A stretch of DNA of 5,951 nt from an uncultured Oscillospiraceae bacterium (GTDB lineage: Bacteria; Bacillota; Clostridia; Oscillospirales; Oscillospiraceae), in contig CAAEKI010000086.1 in NCBI GenBank assembly GCA_900756495.1, positions 1 to 5,951 on the forward strand, read 5' to 3'. Of this stretch, positions 1 to 5,951 are shown in pieces. The notes beneath the pieces are model-generated. The model was not told where the DNA came from. It worked only from the letters and a program-made list of their open reading frames with translations, and did no database searches. The stretch's first letter is position 1; every line of letters starts with the position of its first letter. Position numbers and translations under genes: made by a program.

Positions 1-19
1 GTCCGCGCCGGCCGGACAT
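1..19 (-). CDS. Possible start of modB (molybdate permease), cut by window edge
   Basis: An ATG at 19-17, four nt after the modA stop, opens a frame reading MSGRRG before the window ends. The position after modA is where modB usually lies. There is no good SD directly upstream, and the same bases can form a small hairpin (GTCCG 17-13 with CGGAC 5-1), so a terminator or plain spacer is also possible. Six codons are too few to identify the product. Confidence 0.25.
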
Positions 20-23
20 GGGT

Positions 24-938
24 TTACTGGATGACGGTGAAGCCCACGCCCTCCAGCACGGCGATGGCGCCGGCGTCGGTGTGGAGGTAATCCAGGAAGG
101 CCTGGGCGGCCTCCTGAGCCTCGGCAGTGCCGCTCTTCATGACGGCTGCGGGGTAGATAACCTGGCTGCACATATCCTCAGTGGCGGCGTCCACCACATT
201 GAGCTCATAGGTAAAGGCGTCGGTGGCGTAGATAATGCCGCAGTCTACAGCGGCCTCCTTGACCTGGTTGGCGACCTCGGTGACATTGGTGCCGTAGGTC
301 ACCTTGCCGTCGGCCTCCAGCTGGGCGATGTCGATCCCAAGGGTGTCCAGGATCTCCAGAGAGTAGGAGCCGACAGGCACGTCCTCATTGCCGATGCACA
401 GCAGGGAGAGCTTGTCGCTGGCCAGGTCCTGGAAGGACTCAATGCCGGCGGGGTTGTCGTCGGGCACAGCTAAAACGACCTTGTTTTCCACCAGATTGAT
501 GCGGGTGTCGGAGTTGACAAAGTCCAATCCGCCCTCGTTGGCGCCGCTGGTGTCGGCGGCATCCAGCTGATTCATCTGCTTTTGCCCGGCGGAGATAAAC
601 AGGTCGCACACGGCTCCCTCCTCAATCTGGGTCTTGAGGGTGCCGGAGGAGTCGAAGTTATAAGTCAGGGTGACATTGGGAGCAACTTCCTTGTAGAGTT
701 CGGCGATCTCAGTGAGAGTGGCTTCCATAGAGGCAGCGGCGAAGACGACGACCTCCACAGGGGCGGCCTCGGGCTCCGGAGAGGTAGTGTCAGCGGGCTC
801 CGCAGAGTTGGGAGCGGTGGATTCGGGGGCCGGAGAGGCGGCGGTGCCGCCGCCGCTGGTACCGCCGCCGCAGGCGGCCAAAGCAAAGACCAGGGCGAGT
901 GCAAGCAGAAGAGACATTGCTTTTTTCATTTTGTTCAT
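24..938 (-). CDS. modA: Molybdate ABC transporter substrate-binding lipoprotein ModA
   Basis: ModA captures molybdate (or tungstate) outside the membrane and hands it to the ModB/ModC permease. From the ATG at 938 the protein has 304 residues. It begins with a lipoprotein signal peptide: a lysine-rich start (MNKMKKAM), a hydrophobic core and the lipobox LAAC with the lipidated Cys23. A low-complexity linker rich in Gly, Ser, Thr, Ala, Pro and Glu (about 24-60) tethers the domain. The binding domain opens with VVFAAASM (64-71), followed by NFDSSGT (94-100), DLFISAG (112-118), VPVGSYS (187-193) and CGIIYATDA (233-241), the usual ModA anion-site segments. Ser70 and Ser97/Ser98 are likely oxyanion ligands. 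The lipid anchor fits a Gram-positive cell. It follows mogA across a gap that may hold a regulatory RNA. Choice between molybdate and tungstate cannot be made from sequence. Confidence 0.94.
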   Translation of the reverse strand: MNKMKKAMSLLLALALVFALAACGGGTSGGGTAASPAPESTAPNSAEPADTTSPEPEAAPVEVVVFAAASMEATLTEIAELYKEVAPNVTLTYNFDSSGTLKTQIEEGAVCDLFISAGQKQMNQLDAADTSGANEGGLDFVNSDTRINLVENKVVLAVPDDNPAGIESFQDLASDKLSLLCIGNEDVPVGSYSLEILDTLGIDIAQLEADGKVTYGTNVTEVANQVKEAAVDCGIIYATDAFTYELNVVDAATEDMCSQVIYPAAVMKSGTAEAQEAAQAFLDYLHTDAGAIAVLEGVGFTVIQ

Positions 939-946
939 TGTGAATA

Positions 947-953
947 CTCCTTT
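947..953 (-). promoter_or_regulatory. Ribosome binding site of modA
   Basis: AAAGGAG lies 8 nt upstream of the ATG at 938. It favours this start over the in-frame ATG at 929 (17 nt away) and over the ATG at 998, which would place a non-signal extension before the lipoprotein signal peptide. Confidence 0.8.
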
Positions 954-960
954 ACAAAGA

Positions 961-1076
961 TGGTAGGCGCGCCCGTTTCCGGTACGGCCCATTGGCACGC
1001 GTCCATAGCGCGCTGCGCCTTAGGTCCGCGGGCTCGAAGTCGTGGGGACCAGGGTATGCGTAAATGGAACCTCCTT
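961..1076 (-). ncRNA. Candidate structured RNA / leader upstream of modA
   Basis: The 148 nt between mogA and modA hold a GC-rich stretch that looks like structured RNA rather than coding sequence. Local stems can be read on the minus strand: GGTCC (1050-1046) with GGACC (1027-1023); GGCGC-AGC-GCGCT (1019-1007, five pairs including one G-U); and CCGT (987-984) with ACGG (976-973). A longer-range pairing TACGC (1062-1058) with GCGTG (1000-996) could close the domain. AAGGAGG (1076-1070) sits at its 5' edge without a normal start codon behind it. The modA SD (950-947) is just downstream, so the RNA could control modA translation, or it could be an independent ncRNA. I could not match it to the Moco RNA motif. 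The raiA motif of Firmicutes is a family worth testing, but I cannot assign it. Confidence 0.45.
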
Positions 1077-1086
1077 CTTGAAAGAT

Positions 1087-1575
1087 TCAGCGGGCGCAGT
1101 TGTTTGCGTCGCCTTTTAAAATCTCCAGGCCGTGGGCCAGGGAGGGGAGGATGTACTCCAGACACTCCTTCACCGCCTTGGGGCTGCCGGGGAGATTTAC
1201 GATGAGAGCGCTCTTCCGGATGCCGGCGGCGGCCCGGGAGAGCATGGCGCGGGGGGTAATCTGCAGAGAGCGATAACGCATGGCCTCGGCGATGCCGGGG
1301 GCGGGGCGCTCCACCACAGCCATAGTGGCCTCCGGCGTACAGTCCCGAGGGGAGAAGCCAGTGCCGCCGGTGGTGAGAATCAGGTCGGCCTTGCCGCCGT
1401 CGCACAGATCGATGAGGGCCGCCTTGAGTCTTTCGGGGTCGTCGGGCAGGAGGGAGACGTGGGCGAGTTCATAGCCTGCCGCTGAAACCAACTCCTGAAT
1501 GACGGGGCCGCTCTTGTCTTCCCGGGTTCCGGCGTAGCCGGAGTCGCTCAGGGTAATCACTGCTGCACGGTACAT
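1087..1575 (-). CDS. mogA: Molybdopterin adenylyltransferase, MogA/MoaB family
   Basis: Members of this family activate molybdopterin by adenylylation with ATP, giving MPT-AMP, the substrate of MoeA. The 162-residue protein is a single MoCF_biosynth domain of normal length. It starts MYRAAVITLSDSG, with the family's early T-x-S-D pattern. TTGGTG (68-73) and SPRDCTPEA (75-83) follow; Asp78 probably matches the catalytic aspartate of the TPEA motif. LPGSPKAV (128-135) is the other binding loop, and the protein ends with EILKGDANNCAR. The ATG at 1575 follows a strong SD and lies 3 nt after the MOSC gene. MogA and MoaB proteins are difficult to separate by motif alone; adenylyltransferase activity is likely because no other MogA candidate is in the block. 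It is followed by a 148-nt gap without a clear terminator. Confidence 0.9.
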   Translation of the reverse strand: MYRAAVITLSDSGYAGTREDKSGPVIQELVSAAGYELAHVSLLPDDPERLKAALIDLCDGGKADLILTTGGTGFSPRDCTPEATMAVVERPAPGIAEAMRYRSLQITPRAMLSRAAAGIRKSALIVNLPGSPKAVKECLEYILPSLAHGLEILKGDANNCAR

Positions 1576-1578
1576 AGA

Positions 1579-2016
1579 CTAGCCCTCCTCCAAGATGGAA
1601 AATGTATCGCCCACAGAGACGGTGCCTCCGTGGAGTACGCGGGTGAACACGCCCTCCCGGGGCATGATGCAGTCCCCCATGGCGTGGTAAATGGCGCAGT
1701 GGGCGTGACACTCCTTACCGACCTGCGTCAGCTCCAGAATCACATCGTTGCACTTGAATTTGGTGCCGATGGGGAGCGTTTTGAAGTCGAAACCGGAGAT
1801 CACCAGGTTTTCGCCAAACGCTCCGTCGTCCACCTGGGCGCCGCGGGCGCGGAAATCCTCCACCTTCTCGTGGGACAGGAGGGAGACCTGGCGGTGCCAG
1901 TTTCCGGCGTGGGCGTCGTTCTCAATGCCCCAGTTTTCCACCAGCCTGGCGGATTGAATATTTTTCTTCTGCGTGCCCTTCTTTTCGCTGACGCAGACTG
2001 CGAGAATCGTTCCCAT
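1579..2016 (-). CDS. MOSC-domain protein (putative Moco-associated sulfur/pterin carrier)
   Basis: This 145-residue protein consists essentially of a single MOSC domain, the domain shared with the C-terminus of Moco sulfurases and with YiiM-type proteins. Visible motifs are GIENDAHAG (30-38), GAFGENL (65-71) and the cysteine-rich GKECHAHCAIY (100-110), followed by GDCIMPREGVF (114-124). Cys103, Cys107 and Cys116 are candidates for carrying persulfide or contacting the cofactor. The start at 2016 is set by an excellent SD. The gene stops 3 nt before the mogA-like gene, and the two probably act together: proteins combining MOSC with MogA/MoaB-type domains are, to my knowledge, known in other anaerobes. 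The family is clear. The precise role (sulfuration, cofactor transfer or Mo handling) cannot be read from sequence. Confidence 0.93.
   Translation of the reverse strand: MGTILAVCVSEKKGTQKKNIQSARLVENWGIENDAHAGNWHRQVSLLSHEKVEDFRARGAQVDDGAFGENLVISGFDFKTLPIGTKFKCNDVILELTQVGKECHAHCAIYHAMGDCIMPREGVFTRVLHGGTVSVGDTFSILEEG
1583..1591 (-). promoter_or_regulatory. Ribosome binding site of the mogA-like gene
   Basis: GGAGGAGGG lies inside the last codons of the MOSC gene, 7 nt upstream of the ATG at 1575. It is a strong SD that fixes the start and allows translation without relying solely on coupling. Confidence 0.85.
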
Positions 2017-2021
2017 GTTGT

Positions 2022-2028
2022 TCACCTC
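2022..2028 (-). promoter_or_regulatory. Ribosome binding site of the MOSC gene
   Basis: GAGGTGA on the minus strand lies 5 nt before the ATG at 2016. It is a strong SD that decides the start; the frame stays open to 2160 but the upstream part has no SD and reads through the intergenic hairpin element. Confidence 0.85.
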
Positions 2029-2079
2029 GGATTGGTTGTTTACAGACTGCCGGGAGCGTACACGTAGGAATACGGTATC

Positions 2080-2165
2080 AGGCCTTGTATGAAAAAAGTC
2101 AAAACGCCCAAACGGCGGAAAAATCTCTCGCCGTTGGCCATCCCGCCAATGTTCAAACAAGGCCT
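2080..2165 (-). repeat. Long inverted repeat / RNA hairpin element downstream of moaA
   Basis: On the transcribed strand AGGCCTTGT (2165-2157), which begins in the moaA stop codon, is perfectly complementary to ACAAGGCCT (2088-2080). After one T-T mismatch a further four pairs (TGAA/TTCA) extend the stem to 13 of 14 positions. The stem encloses about 58 nt that contain a terminator-like hairpin and alternative pairings. Either a regulatory RNA domain or a small dispersed repeat element would fit. The pairing is seen directly; the function is unknown. Confidence 0.55.
2092..2137 (-). terminator. Possible intrinsic terminator or attenuator between moaA and the MOSC gene
   Basis: On the minus strand CCAACGGCG (2137-2129) can pair with CGCCGTTTGG (2117-2108): nine pairs with one bulged T and an 11-nt loop. 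It is followed by GCG, then TTTT (2104-2101) and, after GAC, six more T (2097-2092). This resembles a rho-independent terminator with an interrupted U-tract. The upstream segment TTGGC (2149-2145) can instead pair with GCCAA (2138-2134), and GGCGGGA (2147-2141) with TTCCGCC (2120-2114). Both would disrupt the terminator stem, so partial termination or attenuation is possible. Confidence 0.4.
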
Positions 2166-3138
2166 AGCCCCCGATCTGGTTCATGTTTCGCCGCTCGTCC
2201 AGCGCCTCGCGCCCTTCGGTGAAGTGGTGGGCGGCGGGCTTGCGGGCGATGGCGCTGGCCATGGCGGACCGAAGGGCCTCGTCGCTGGCTCCGCTGTCCA
2301 GCAGGGCCTTGAGGTCCACCCCCGCCTCATACTGGAGGCAGGTTTTGAGAAAACCGGTGGCGGTGAGGCGCACCCGGTTGCAGTCGCCGCAGAACTGGTG
2401 GGTCATGGCGCTGATGAAGCCCACCTTCCCCTGAAAGTCCCGGAAGGTGACATACTGCCCCGGACCGGCGCCCTCCGCCCGCTCACAGGGGAGGGCGGGG
2501 CCGAAAGCCCCCTCCAGGATCTCCATGACCTGGGCCTGGGTCCGTCGGGGGAGGGAGCTGCCCAGACCGATGGGCATCAGCTCGATGAACCGCACCGACA
2601 GCCGGCTGTCCCTGGCCAGCGCGGCCAGGGGTACCAGCTGGGCGTCGTTGTCCCCCATGGGGACGCAGTTGAGCTTCACATTCAGCCCGGGGACGGCCAG
2701 GGCGGCCTTCAGGCCGGCCAGGGCGCTGTCCAGCTCATCCCGCCGGGTAATGCGCTTGAACTGCTCCCGGTCCAGGGTGTCCAGGCTCAGGTTTATGCCG
2801 TTGAGCCCCGCGTCCAGCAGGGCTGGGAGCTGTTCGGCCAGGAGGACTCCGTTGGTGGTGATGGTGACCGATTCAATGCCGGGAATCGCCTTGACCCCGC
2901 GCACGATTCGATCCAGCCCTTTGCGTACCAGGGGCTCGCCGCCGGTGAGCCGCACGCGCCGGACACCCAGCGAGGCAAAAATCCGGCACAGGCGGATGAG
3001 TTCCTCATAGCTCAGAATGGAGGTGTGCTCCACCCACTCCACGCCCTCGCAGGGCATGCAGTAGACGCACCGCAGGTTGCACCGGTCGGTGATGGAGACC
3101 CGCAGGTAGTCGATGGAGCGCCCATGTCCGTCAATCAT
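2164..3138 (-). CDS. moaA: GTP 3',8-cyclase MoaA (radical SAM)
   Basis: MoaA is the radical S-adenosylmethionine enzyme that begins Moco synthesis by rearranging GTP to 3',8-cyclo-7,8-dihydro-GTP. The N-terminal cluster motif is Cys20-x3-Cys24-x2-Cys27 in DRCNLRCVYC. It is followed by the SAM-binding GGEP at 66-69 and TTNG at 94-97. The second, C-terminal cluster that binds GTP is represented by Cys250, Cys253 and Cys267 (FCGDCNRVRLTATGFLKTC). The protein ends in Gly-Gly (MNQIGG), the conserved MoaA tail that reaches into the active site. Its 324 residues are the normal length. The ATG at 3138 is preceded by AAAGGCGG roughly 10 nt upstream, and the gene overlaps mobB by 8 nt. All key residues are present, so this is an intact enzyme. 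It is the last gene of the tightly overlapping block before a 147-nt gap. Confidence 0.97.
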   Translation of the reverse strand: MIDGHGRSIDYLRVSITDRCNLRCVYCMPCEGVEWVEHTSILSYEELIRLCRIFASLGVRRVRLTGGEPLVRKGLDRIVRGVKAIPGIESVTITTNGVLLAEQLPALLDAGLNGINLSLDTLDREQFKRITRRDELDSALAGLKAALAVPGLNVKLNCVPMGDNDAQLVPLAALARDSRLSVRFIELMPIGLGSSLPRRTQAQVMEILEGAFGPALPCERAEGAGPGQYVTFRDFQGKVGFISAMTHQFCGDCNRVRLTATGFLKTCLQYEAGVDLKALLDSGASDEALRSAMASAIARKPAAHHFTEGREALDERRNMNQIGG

Positions 3139-3640
3139 GGCTTGTGCCGCCTTTCACATGGTTTACAATCAATTCCGCCGCCGCCCGGCTGTCGCCGAAG
3201 GGGATGGTTGGCACCCCATCGGGCGCGACAGGCAGGTCTGTAACCAGGGCCAGCAGGGTGGCTGGGTCGCAGACCGGCTGTTCGGAGTTTCCCGCGCGCA
3301 CCAACTCCAGCTTGGGCCAGCAGGATCCCTTGAAGCCCTCCAGAAGGATGAGATCAGCCTCCGGGAAGAGAGGAATAAAGTCGTTTTCATCGAAGCTGCC
3401 CCGTTTGACTACCCTGCACTTCTCTCCGTCGAAGAGGGCGGTGCCGCAGGCGCCTGCGGCAAAGTGGCGGCCGGTATCGGTGGCCGGGTCGTCGGGACGG
3501 AAGGTATGGCCGTCGTGCTTGATGACGGCCACCGACAGCCCGGCGGCCGTCAGGTGGGGGAGCATAGCCTCAATCAGCGTGGTCTTGCCCGAGTTCTTCA
3601 CCCCGGACACCGCCACCACGGCCTGTCTACCCTTTGACAT
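3131..3640 (-). CDS. mobB: Molybdopterin-guanine dinucleotide biosynthesis GTPase MobB
   Basis: MobB is a P-loop GTP-binding protein that assists attachment of GMP to Mo-MPT or its delivery; it is an accessory to MobA. The 169-residue protein starts [13 protein letters not shown] and carries the Walker A sequence [10 protein letters not shown] (13-22), KHDGHTF (41-47) typical of the MobB family, and the hydrophobic DLILLEGFK (96-104), where the Walker B-like segment lies. The frame stays open to 3712, but the extra residues are only moaC read in another frame, so the ATG at 3640 is the likely start. That start overlaps moaC by 14 nt and has no clear SD, so it probably depends on coupling to moaC translation. 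The stop overlaps moaA by 8 nt. No MobA partner is visible here. The family call is firm; which nucleotide form of the cofactor it serves is unknown. Confidence 0.95.
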
Positions 3641-4112
3641 TGTCAAACACACCGGACTTGCCGCCCTCCTTGTGGACCAGGTGGACGCCGGAGATCTCCA
3701 TGGTCTTGTCAATGGCCTTGCACATGTCGTAGATGGTGAGCAGGGCTACTGATACGCCGGTGAGGGCCTCCATCTCCACGCCGGTCTTGCCCGATACCTT
3801 CACGGTGCACACGGCGGTGATAATCCCCTCCTCCGGGGAGAGCTCAAAATCCACCGCAGCCTTGTTCAGGTTCAGCGGGTGGCACATGGGAATGAGGTCG
3901 GAGGTGCGCTTGGTGCCCATGATGCCGGCCACCCGGGCCACCCCCAGCACGTCGCCCTTGGCGGCGGTGCGGTTTACAATGGCGTCCATGACAGGCTGGC
4001 TCACATGAATGGAGCCCTTGGCAATGGCCATGCGCTCGGTGGGGGCCTTCTCCGACACGTCCACCATCACGGCGTTTCCTTTTTCGTCAAAGTGGTTGAA
4101 TTTAGCTTCCAT
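3627..4112 (-). CDS. moaC: Cyclic pyranopterin monophosphate synthase MoaC
   Basis: MoaC acts with MoaA in the first step of Moco synthesis. It turns 3',8-cyclo-7,8-dihydro-GTP made by MoaA into cyclic pyranopterin monophosphate. At 161 residues it has the length of E. coli MoaC. It carries MVDVSEK (16-22), [19 protein letters not shown] (52-70), LIPMCHPL (73-80) and YDMCKAID (128-135). Lys52, His78, Asp129 and Lys132 line up, with an offset of one, with the E. coli active-site residues Lys51, His77, Asp128 and Lys131. The ATG at 4112 is preceded by GGAGG at 4126-4122 with 9 nt spacing, inside the end of moeA; the genes overlap by 11 nt. It stops with TAG inside the beginning of mobB. It appears intact and functional. 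Confidence 0.98.
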
Positions 4113-5340
4113 GTCCGGATGCCTCCGTATCCTGCATCAGATGTACGCCCACAGTCTGCCCAGCCTCCAGGGCGCCGCTGCCTGCCGGAATGTCCACCAG
4201 ACAGTTGCAGCCCACCAGGGAGGAGAGCAGGCCGGAGGAGTGCTCACTGGGGAGGGTGACGCGGCCGTCTGTATAGGTCCCCCGCAGAAAGCGCCGTCCG
4301 GGGCTCTTCTTGCCGAAGGGCGTGGCCAGCACGGCCTCCCGCCGTGCCATGCGGAGACCGGGCTCCCCGGCCAGAGCGGCCAGCAGCGGACGGCCCAGCA
4401 GCTCAAAGGTGGAGGCGGCGGCAAAGGGATTGCCTGAGAGGGAGAGAATGGGCTTGCCCTGCCATAGGGAGAACATGGCGGGGGGGCCCGGCTTGAGCTT
4501 TACCTTCCAGAACAGACGCTCGGCGCCCAGGAGGGGCAGGGCCTCGTGAAAGATATCCTTGTCACCCACAGAGACGCCGCCGGTGGTGATGAGCACGTCA
4601 TACTGCTCACACAGCCGCGCCATGGCGTCTGCCACAGCGGCGGGGTCGTCCCCGATCTGCTCGTGGTGAACCTCTGAAATGCCCAACTCCTTCAGCCGGG
4701 CCCAGATGAGATGGGCGTTGGAACCGTAAATTTTTCCGGCGGGCAGAGGATGGACCTCCGGGGCGACTACCTCGTCGCCGGTAGAGAGGACGGCTGCCGA
4801 GGGGCGGCGGCGGACCTGGATGCTCTCACAGAGTCCGGCGCTGGCCAGTACGCCGACGGCGGCGGCGTCCAAACGGGTTCCGGCAGGGAGCAGCACGCTT
4901 CCCGCCTTGTAGTCCTCGCCGCGGTAGCAGTAGTTGTCCCATGCCTTCAGCGGCTGATAAACCTCCACGACAGGGAAACCCATATCGGTCTTCTCCTGCA
5001 TGAGCACACAGTCACAGCCCTGGGGGAGCATGGCCCCGGTCATGATGCGCACACACTGCCCCTGCTCCACAGGCACCGCCGCCACGTCTCCGGCGTAGAC
5101 GGTATCCACGACGGTCAGCCTGACGGGGGATTCCTGAGAGGCGCCGGCGATGTCGGCGGCGCGGAGGGCATATCCGTCCAGCGGCGAGCGGTCAAAGGGG
5201 GGATTATCCAGAGGGGTGGTGAGGTCGGCCGCCAGGGTGCGGCCCAGGGCGGCGGTCAGGGGCAGGGACTCGGTGCCCAGGGGGGAGACGGCAGCCTCCA
5301 TGAGGCCGACGGCCTCCTCCAGCTCGATTCCGGTTTTCAT
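4102..5340 (-). CDS. moeA: Molybdopterin molybdenumtransferase MoeA
   Basis: MoeA inserts molybdate into adenylylated molybdopterin, releasing AMP and giving active Mo-MPT in the cytoplasm. The 412 residues match the usual length of the family. Visible motifs in order are: [11 protein letters not shown] near residues 49-58 (the family's N-S-x-M-D-G-Y-A-type segment); [14 protein letters not shown] at 97-110; STGDEVV at 186-192, opening the MoCF-like domain; [13 protein letters not shown] at 252-264; and LSGNPFAA at 301-308. A C-terminal MoeA domain IV-like part follows, from about residue 335. The ATG at 5340 is used; a weak AAAGGG lies about 10 nt upstream, and the preceding gene stops only 3 nt away. 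Its end overlaps the moaC start by 11 nt, so the two are likely translationally coupled. No lesion or missing motif is visible. Confidence 0.96.
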
Positions 5341-5343
5341 AGG

Positions 5344-5951
5344 CTACACACCCTTTCCAAAGGGACAGATGGGATAGTGACACTGCTCACAGCCCAGGCA
5401 CAGCCCGCCGTGGCCCAGTCCCTTGAGATCGGCGCGGCTGACGGGAATGCCGGCGGCCACCCGGGGGAGAATCAGGTCAAAAATGGTGGCCTTGGCATAC
5501 ATGACGCAGCCGGGCAGGCCCATAACGGGCGTCCCGTCGGCGTAATAGCCCAGCAGGAACATGGCGCCGGGGAGCACGGGAGCGCCGTAGCTCACCACAT
5601 TGACTCCGGCGGCCTTGATGGCGCCGGGTGTTCTGTCGTCAGGGTCCACGCTCATGCCGCCGGTACAGAGGATGAGATCCACACCTTTTTTGTGGAAGTC
5701 CTCCACAGCTGCGGTAATGGCGGCCATATCATCGCCGGGAAGGATATGCTCGGTGACCGAAATGCCAAAGGCGGCCAGCTTGTCCACAATAACGGGGGTA
5801 AAGGTGTCCTGAATACGGCCGGTGGAGACCTCGCTGCCGGTGGTGATGAGGCCGCAGGTCTTCAGCTTCCAGGGGTGGAGGGAGAGAATAGGACCCTCGC
5901 CGGCGCGCTCCTCCACCGCCCGGAGCTTACCGGCGGGAATGACCAGGGGAA
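5344..5951 (-). CDS. MoCF-fold molybdopterin-binding protein, C-terminal part (5' end outside window)
   Basis: This is a partial gene. The frame is open to the right edge, giving 201 visible residues before the TAG stop. A GTG at 5916 could be taken as a start, but the upstream codons (reading PLVIPAGKLRAVEE) join smoothly to the protein, so the true start is probably beyond 5951. The visible part is a MoCF_biosynth (MoeA/MogA-like) domain. It has TTGSEV near its beginning, then CTGGMSVDPDDRTPGAI and LPGCVMYAKA, which resemble the MPT-binding loops of MogA and MoeA. The tail carries four cysteines spaced CxxCxxCx4C (CLGCEQCHYPICPFGK), plausibly a metal or Fe-S site. From family knowledge, such proteins occur beside Moco genes in anaerobic Firmicutes, with an additional N-terminal region; their exact reaction is not established here. 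Its stop lies 3 nt before moeA, so the two are probably co-transcribed. Binding of a Mo-pterin is inferred. Confidence 0.88.
   Translation of the reverse strand, partial: PLVIPAGKLRAVEERAGEGPILSLHPWKLKTCGLITTGSEVSTGRIQDTFTPVIVDKLAAFGISVTEHILPGDDMAAITAAVEDFHKKGVDLILCTGGMSVDPDDRTPGAIKAAGVNVVSYGAPVLPGAMFLLGYYADGTPVMGLPGCVMYAKATIFDLILPRVAAGIPVSRADLKGLGHGGLCLGCEQCHYPICPFGKGV

Follow-up and report, generated by a model that had tools for sequence, protein, structure and literature searches.

Gene neighbourhood and aptamer architecture

The window, the whole stretch of 5,951 nt (1-5,951) analysed here, carries on its minus strand a set of molybdenum cofactor (Moco) biosynthesis genes and modA, which codes for the substrate-binding protein of a molybdate ABC transporter. 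The initial annotation had drawn a gap at 939-1086 between mogA and modA, and the borders of both genes confirmed it. The mogA-like gene lies directly upstream of the RNA described below, in the same direction, with 35 nt between its stop codon and the RNA match. The order of the Moco genes is the same in relatives (e.g., loci L008 and L009). Solved ModA relatives of the modA product were found by sequence, and a scan of viral contigs for the ModA of the window found none. Upstream of the ATG, the modA reading frame runs on without a stop codon as far as a GTG at 998, within the aptamer (window 998-939); we took as the start codon ATG 938, the one with a Shine-Dalgarno sequence.

A loose-threshold scan of the whole window returned a single Rfam match, RF01055, the Moco/Tuco riboswitch, covering 1051-931 of the minus strand (51.1 bits, E-value 2.6e-10; gathering score, 36 bits). 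Such a covariance scan had been proposed in the initial annotation, where no known riboswitch class was recognised and Moco, which names the matched family, was offered as a possible signal. The features of the locus are the following.

24-938, minus strand: modA, molybdate ABC transporter substrate-binding protein (ATG at 938-936; TIGR01256, 110.4 bits, cut-off 62.5)
931-1051, minus strand: RF01055 Moco/Tuco riboswitch aptamer, P3-less (complete, model positions 1-135)
946-950, minus strand: P1 3' strand GGAGU, containing the modA Shine-Dalgarno sequence (AAAGGAG, 953-947)
954-964, minus strand: P5 (964-963 with 954-955)
965-990, minus strand: P4 with GAAA tetraloop (990-980 with 965-975; loop 979-976)
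991-994, minus strand: P2-P4 junction CAAU, P3 stem absent (P3 columns deleted in the Rfam alignment)
995-1033, minus strand: P2 and apical hairpin (1033-1023 with 995-1004; tip 1019-1016 with 1007-1010)
1024-1019 and 1007-1003, minus strand: tetraloop receptor in P2 (CCUAAG and UAUGG)
1036-1040, minus strand: P1 5' strand ACUUC (pairs with 950-946)
1087-1575, minus strand: mogA-like gene (stop at 1087-1089; MogA/MoaB-type matches, TIGR00177 above cut-off)
1579-5951, minus strand: remaining Moco-biosynthesis operon (MOSC protein, moaA, mobB, moaC, moeA and a second MoeA-like protein cut off by the window end)

All defining features open to testing here place the gap RNA in RF01055: its score exceeds the curators' cut-off, it has a GAAA tetraloop on P4 and a receptor in P2, its P1, P2, P4 and P5 helices covary among relatives, and it precedes modA, a transport gene over the TIGR01256 cut-off. 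The letters of the receptor match what we take to be the classic 11-nt tetraloop receptor. P4 of the window has four mismatches in the Rfam register, part of which are mended by a one-base bulge. The P3 stem of the Moco subtype is absent, and the gap RNA therefore falls in the subtype called Tuco. The element itself is a further member of an already known riboswitch family and not a new class.

We found 80 loci in a search for ModA homologues, the most window-like of which come from Flavonifractor, Pseudoflavonifractor and other Oscillospiraceae. RF01055 was present in 10 of the first 11 loci scanned, and twice in 7. In an alignment of 18 RNAs of these relatives, the window RNA among them (A1), changes on both sides were seen at 18 of 32 pairs (84 cells versus 32.4 in shuffled alignments; slid controls, 10 pairs at most). 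A model built from A1 gave 49 matches in the window and the 80 loci at E-values up to 0.01. Fitted to this model, all 49, including the two weakest rows (L032 and L067), formed a second alignment (A2) in which both sides had changed at 26 of 32 pairs (276 cells versus 107.9 shuffled; slid controls, 12 pairs at most). P1 paired in 99.6% of the cells of A2 (49 sequences) and changed on both sides at all five of its pairs. Single-sequence minimum-energy folding of the window RNA was no better than that of shuffles (z of -0.08 and +0.62), so that the evidence for the fold is comparative, not thermodynamic.

These results support the structured, ligand-sensing leader of modA that the initial annotation had suggested, and the covariation check on related RNAs that it had proposed favors the Rfam fold. 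Both palindromes it had listed, ACGCGT (997-1002) and GGCGCGCC (966-973), are exact and belong to the riboswitch core. The two segments that looked conserved are likewise core, as CUUCGAGCC comprises P1 and the start of P2, and UAUGG (1007-1003) is half of the tetraloop receptor. Its list of stems fared unevenly. The hairpin at 1019-1007 is the tip of P2, while P1 with its ribosome-binding site and P4 in the right register were both missed. The stem 1050-1046/1027-1023, which is complementary in the window and present in its minimum-energy fold, would replace part of P2 and is not conserved, pairing in 32.2% of cells versus 29.8% in shuffled alignments (18 sequences). The stem 987-984/976-973 does not fit the register of P4, takes in position 976 of the GAAA loop, and pairs in 52.8% of cells versus 51.4% shuffled. 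The last of its four stems, 1062-1058/1000-996, is complementary by eye with one G-U pair, lies partly outside the motif and would break P2.

The modA ribosome-binding site and the second copy in related operons

We examined 71 copies of the RNA, namely that of the window and 70 of the 72 above-cut-off RF01055 matches in 70 genomes (for G051-G070, the RNA scan was the sole search). Outside this set are L032 (22 bits), L067 (41.8 bits, over the Rfam cut-off, a truncated RNA) and a P3-less copy on G006:C198. Promoter and terminator scans were simple consensus searches, with promoters scored out of 12 matches and terminator-like hairpins called by script.

In the window, the modA Shine-Dalgarno GGAG (950-947) ends 8 nt before the ATG, and this distance is 8-10 nt in 24 modA-proximal copies. 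GGAG lies within the P1 3' strand in all 24 modA-proximal copies that were folded. All five P1 pairs form in 23 of them, the outermost pair being broken in L023. Forcing P1 to close costs a median of 0 kcal/mol (range, 0 to 4.9) in the 23 computable copies. For the window, the P1-closed fold costs 3.1 kcal/mol over the best fold and has a mean GGAG pairing of 1.0, compared with 0.28 when P1 is not forced. Since the Shine-Dalgarno sequence is located inside the P1 3' strand, a bound ligand is predicted to prevent translation of modA. Folding of the ligand-free RNA predicts that GGAG is already paired more than half of the time in 19 of 24 modA-proximal copies (median, 0.885); hence these folds do not explain how the ligand-free state opens.

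E. coli moaA has a leader of the same family (RF01055), which shares with the window RNA the P1, P2, P4 and P5 helices, the GAAA tetraloop and its receptor, a ribosome-binding site within P1 and a Moco-pathway gene downstream. In contrast, the window RNA lacks P3 and is internal to its operon, with mogA on one side and modA on the other, instead of preceding the first gene. The E. coli gene is repressed when Moco is made, and the 2008 report describes direct binding as not demonstrated for lack of stable Moco (PMC2408646). By analogy with this RNA, we infer that the ligand is a metal cofactor, either Moco or the tungsten analogue, that P1 is stabilised when this ligand binds and that repression results. 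A metal-pterin cofactor would thus bind the P3-less aptamer in the modA leader and hold P1 shut; the closed P1 would hide the ribosome-binding site and block translation of the molybdate-uptake protein, such that metal uptake would be switched off under full cofactor supply. We consider it very probable that the gap RNA is a P3-less RF01055 riboswitch of the modA leader, in which cofactor binding closes P1 with a predicted block of modA translation.

Two other readings of the gap were weighed against a modA riboswitch. The initial annotation had regarded an independent noncoding RNA as equally possible, and a small RNA, or an element belonging to the 3' end of mogA, would fit an RNA match that begins 35 nt past the mogA stop codon and whose ends are predicted ones. 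This reading appears very improbable given the position of the modA GGAG in P1 of every folded copy. Furthermore, none of the 25 modA-proximal copies is followed by a terminator-like hairpin or has at least 9 of 12 promoter matches, and only 2 reach at least 8. Chance hairpins in a GC-rich spacer would agree with minimum-energy folds no better than shuffles and with the two unsupported stems of the initial annotation. However, the RF01055 match and the A2 covariation refute that explanation, to which we attach a negligible probability.

Among the remaining 46 copies, terminators were found in 34, at least 9 of 12 promoter matches in 22 and at least 8 in 40. No promoter and no terminator was found in the window between 800 and 1300. 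Sixteen of the 25 modA-proximal copies share their contig with a second copy, which lies upstream and ahead of the operon's first Moco gene; several contigs that end too soon to tell could not contribute to this count. About 4.5-5.6 kb, occupied by Moco genes, separate the two copies. Thirteen of these 16 head copies have a terminator and 15 have at least 8 promoter matches. In several (L008:513-629, L009:575-690, L005:525-641 and similar), a promoter-like site precedes the RNA and a strong terminator follows P1 closely.

In our reading, a single aptamer class serves such an operon twice, gating transcription at the head and translation at modA. The internal copy would add a second, modA-only translational brake to the transcriptional brake at the operon head. 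Because the gene order is shared with relatives, the head copy of the window's operon, if present, is expected beyond base 5951, and the modA copy of the window would be the second brake beside it. Tandem Moco riboswitches likewise place several copies of one aptamer class at one gene cluster, and those described in PMC9481103 are doublets or triplets upstream of genes. Unlike these, the two copies of the relatives are far apart, enclose Moco genes and differ in expression platform. Among the titles and abstracts listed in searches of open-licence papers, none described an operon with this layout. Third copies of the Moco RNA were observed at L082 (G020:C20) and L099 (G010:C113), on contigs other than that of the Moco operon.

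P3 and tungsten genes in a class sample and in operon relatives

A cofactor riboswitch on the importer of its own metal is expected biology, and what our results add concerns P3. Its role as a discriminator between molybdenum and tungsten rests on a genome correlation reported by Regulski et al. in 2008, in which 58 of 176 Moco RNAs lacked P3 and tungsten genes were present in 17 of 19 organisms carrying P3-less RNAs (PMC2408646). The Moco/Wco split is repeated in later papers (PMC9481103, PMC10043782, PMC9971707). In the 2008 report, deletion of P3 from the E. coli RNA is stated to abolish regulation (data not shown there), and a P3-less RNA at a predicted molybdate transporter of Pelobacter carbinolicus is treated as an apparent exception (PMC2408646).

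Our class sample consisted of 392 genomes with a completeness of at least 95%, all from the class of one operon relative, G035. We take this class to be Clostridia in GTDB. RF01055 was found in 54 genomes and the AOR family (PF01314) in 53. AOR co-occurred with the RNA, being found in 41 of the 54 RNA-bearing genomes versus 12 of the 338 without it. P3 was scored with a hairpin script and by eye, low scorers being checked, and a few copies with a long P2 may be scored otherwise. The 52 genomes scored (134 copies) comprise 42 with P3-less copies only, 6 with P3 copies only and 4 with both. In these three groups, 41, 0 and 2 genomes, respectively, gave AOR or TupA matches, all TupA matches being below the strict family cut-off of 400 bits. 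For P3-less-only versus P3-only genomes, Fisher's exact p is 5.7e-7, with no correction for kinship. These counts leave out G015, G035 and two matches under the cut-off; with G015 and G035 the first becomes 42 of 44. The sole P3-less-only class genome without AOR or TupA is G097, whose RNA heads the same kind of gene as the operon of the window's relatives.

Four enzyme and transporter families were searched, both in the 52 class genomes and in 50 relatives of the operon (G001-G050), many of which are metagenome-assembled and may be incomplete, so that missing genes are weak evidence. Thirty-six carry the RNA, with P3-less copies only in 26, both types in 8 and P3 copies only in 2. AOR was found in only 10 of the 26 P3-less-only relatives, among which are all four with TupA, and AOR or TupA in 6 of the 8 mixed ones. 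The other 16 P3-less-only relatives had matches to neither AOR nor TupA, the two of the tungsten genes TupA, WtpA and AOR that the search covered. Furthermore, five of them (G023, G031, G035, G037 and G038) also lack PF00384 and have, of the four families, only xanthine-dehydrogenase-type proteins, which are normally molybdenum enzymes. The P3 rule fails in the opposite direction in G025, which has P3 copies only, yet AOR and TupA matches. The E. coli control also gave a match in the AOR searches, indicating that AOR does not mark tungsten use exclusively. The loss of P3 followed tungsten genes in the class sample and not among the operon relatives.

P3 also varies between corresponding positions of the operon. 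The head aptamers L014:1299-1440 and L035:1359-1476 precede the same gene and are alike at 89 of the 91 compared positions outside P3; the former has a P3 of about 24 nt, which the latter lacks. This pair represents a natural insertion or deletion of P3, which is labile in the operon relatives. Corresponding riboswitches that differ by little more than the P3 hairpin make its role in telling molybdenum from tungsten directly testable, and the operon relatives are a test bed for it. Only one of the 25 modA-proximal copies has a P3 (L043:5253-5398); PF02738 matched 6 times and PF00384 8 times in its genome, G043, where AOR and TupA gave no match.

Whether the modA leader of the window senses the tungsten or the molybdenum cofactor was weighed on this evidence. 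A canonical P3-less Tuco riboswitch, with a ModA that serves tungstate as well as molybdate, is quite possible: the window RNA shares the absence of P3 with the published Tuco/Wco subtype (PMC2408646), whose association with tungsten genes our class sample reproduces sharply, and its 4-nt P2-P4 junction is a common length in the class (4 nt in 24 and 5 nt in 45 of the 93 P3-less copies measured, out of 124). Unlike that subtype, however, the window RNA is predicted to control modA in a Moco operon. The correlation breaks in the window's own relatives, most of which lack AOR and TupA matches when P3-less only, and P3 comes and goes at corresponding positions. We give an even chance to the molybdenum cofactor as the ligand despite the missing P3, on the grounds that the RNA is predicted to control modA and, in relatives, the whole Moco operon, that relatives without AOR, TupA and PF00384 matches retain it, and that the L014 and L035 head aptamers hardly differ except in P3. 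The class-wide association and the reported effect of deleting P3 in E. coli argue against this ligand, as does the small weight of gene absence in draft or metagenome-assembled genomes judged by AOR and TupA. Given the lability of P3 and the mixed evidence from tungsten genes, we give Moco and Tuco nearly the same odds as ligand of the window RNA and lean slightly towards Moco. We tentatively propose that, in this Oscillospiraceae lineage, the P3-less aptamer has been turned into, or kept as, a sensor of the molybdenum cofactor, in which case P3 would be a labile add-on rather than a molybdenum/tungsten switch, and the same class would gate both operon transcription and translation of the uptake protein.

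Junction length was considered as a ligand marker and dropped. It is 2 nt in 45 of the 52 P3-less copies measured (out of 58) near window-type operons, and a 4-nt junction occurs in the window and in five further modA-proximal copies. Some genomes with short junctions carry AOR and TupA, and 31 of 124 class copies and 6 of 58 copies in relatives are unmeasured. At four further loci (L117, L118, L119 and L114, in G048, G045, G042 and G044, respectively), a P3 copy lies ahead of a gene for a molybdopterin oxidoreductase (PF00384), with a P3-less copy about 4 kb farther on, such that the two types occur side by side.
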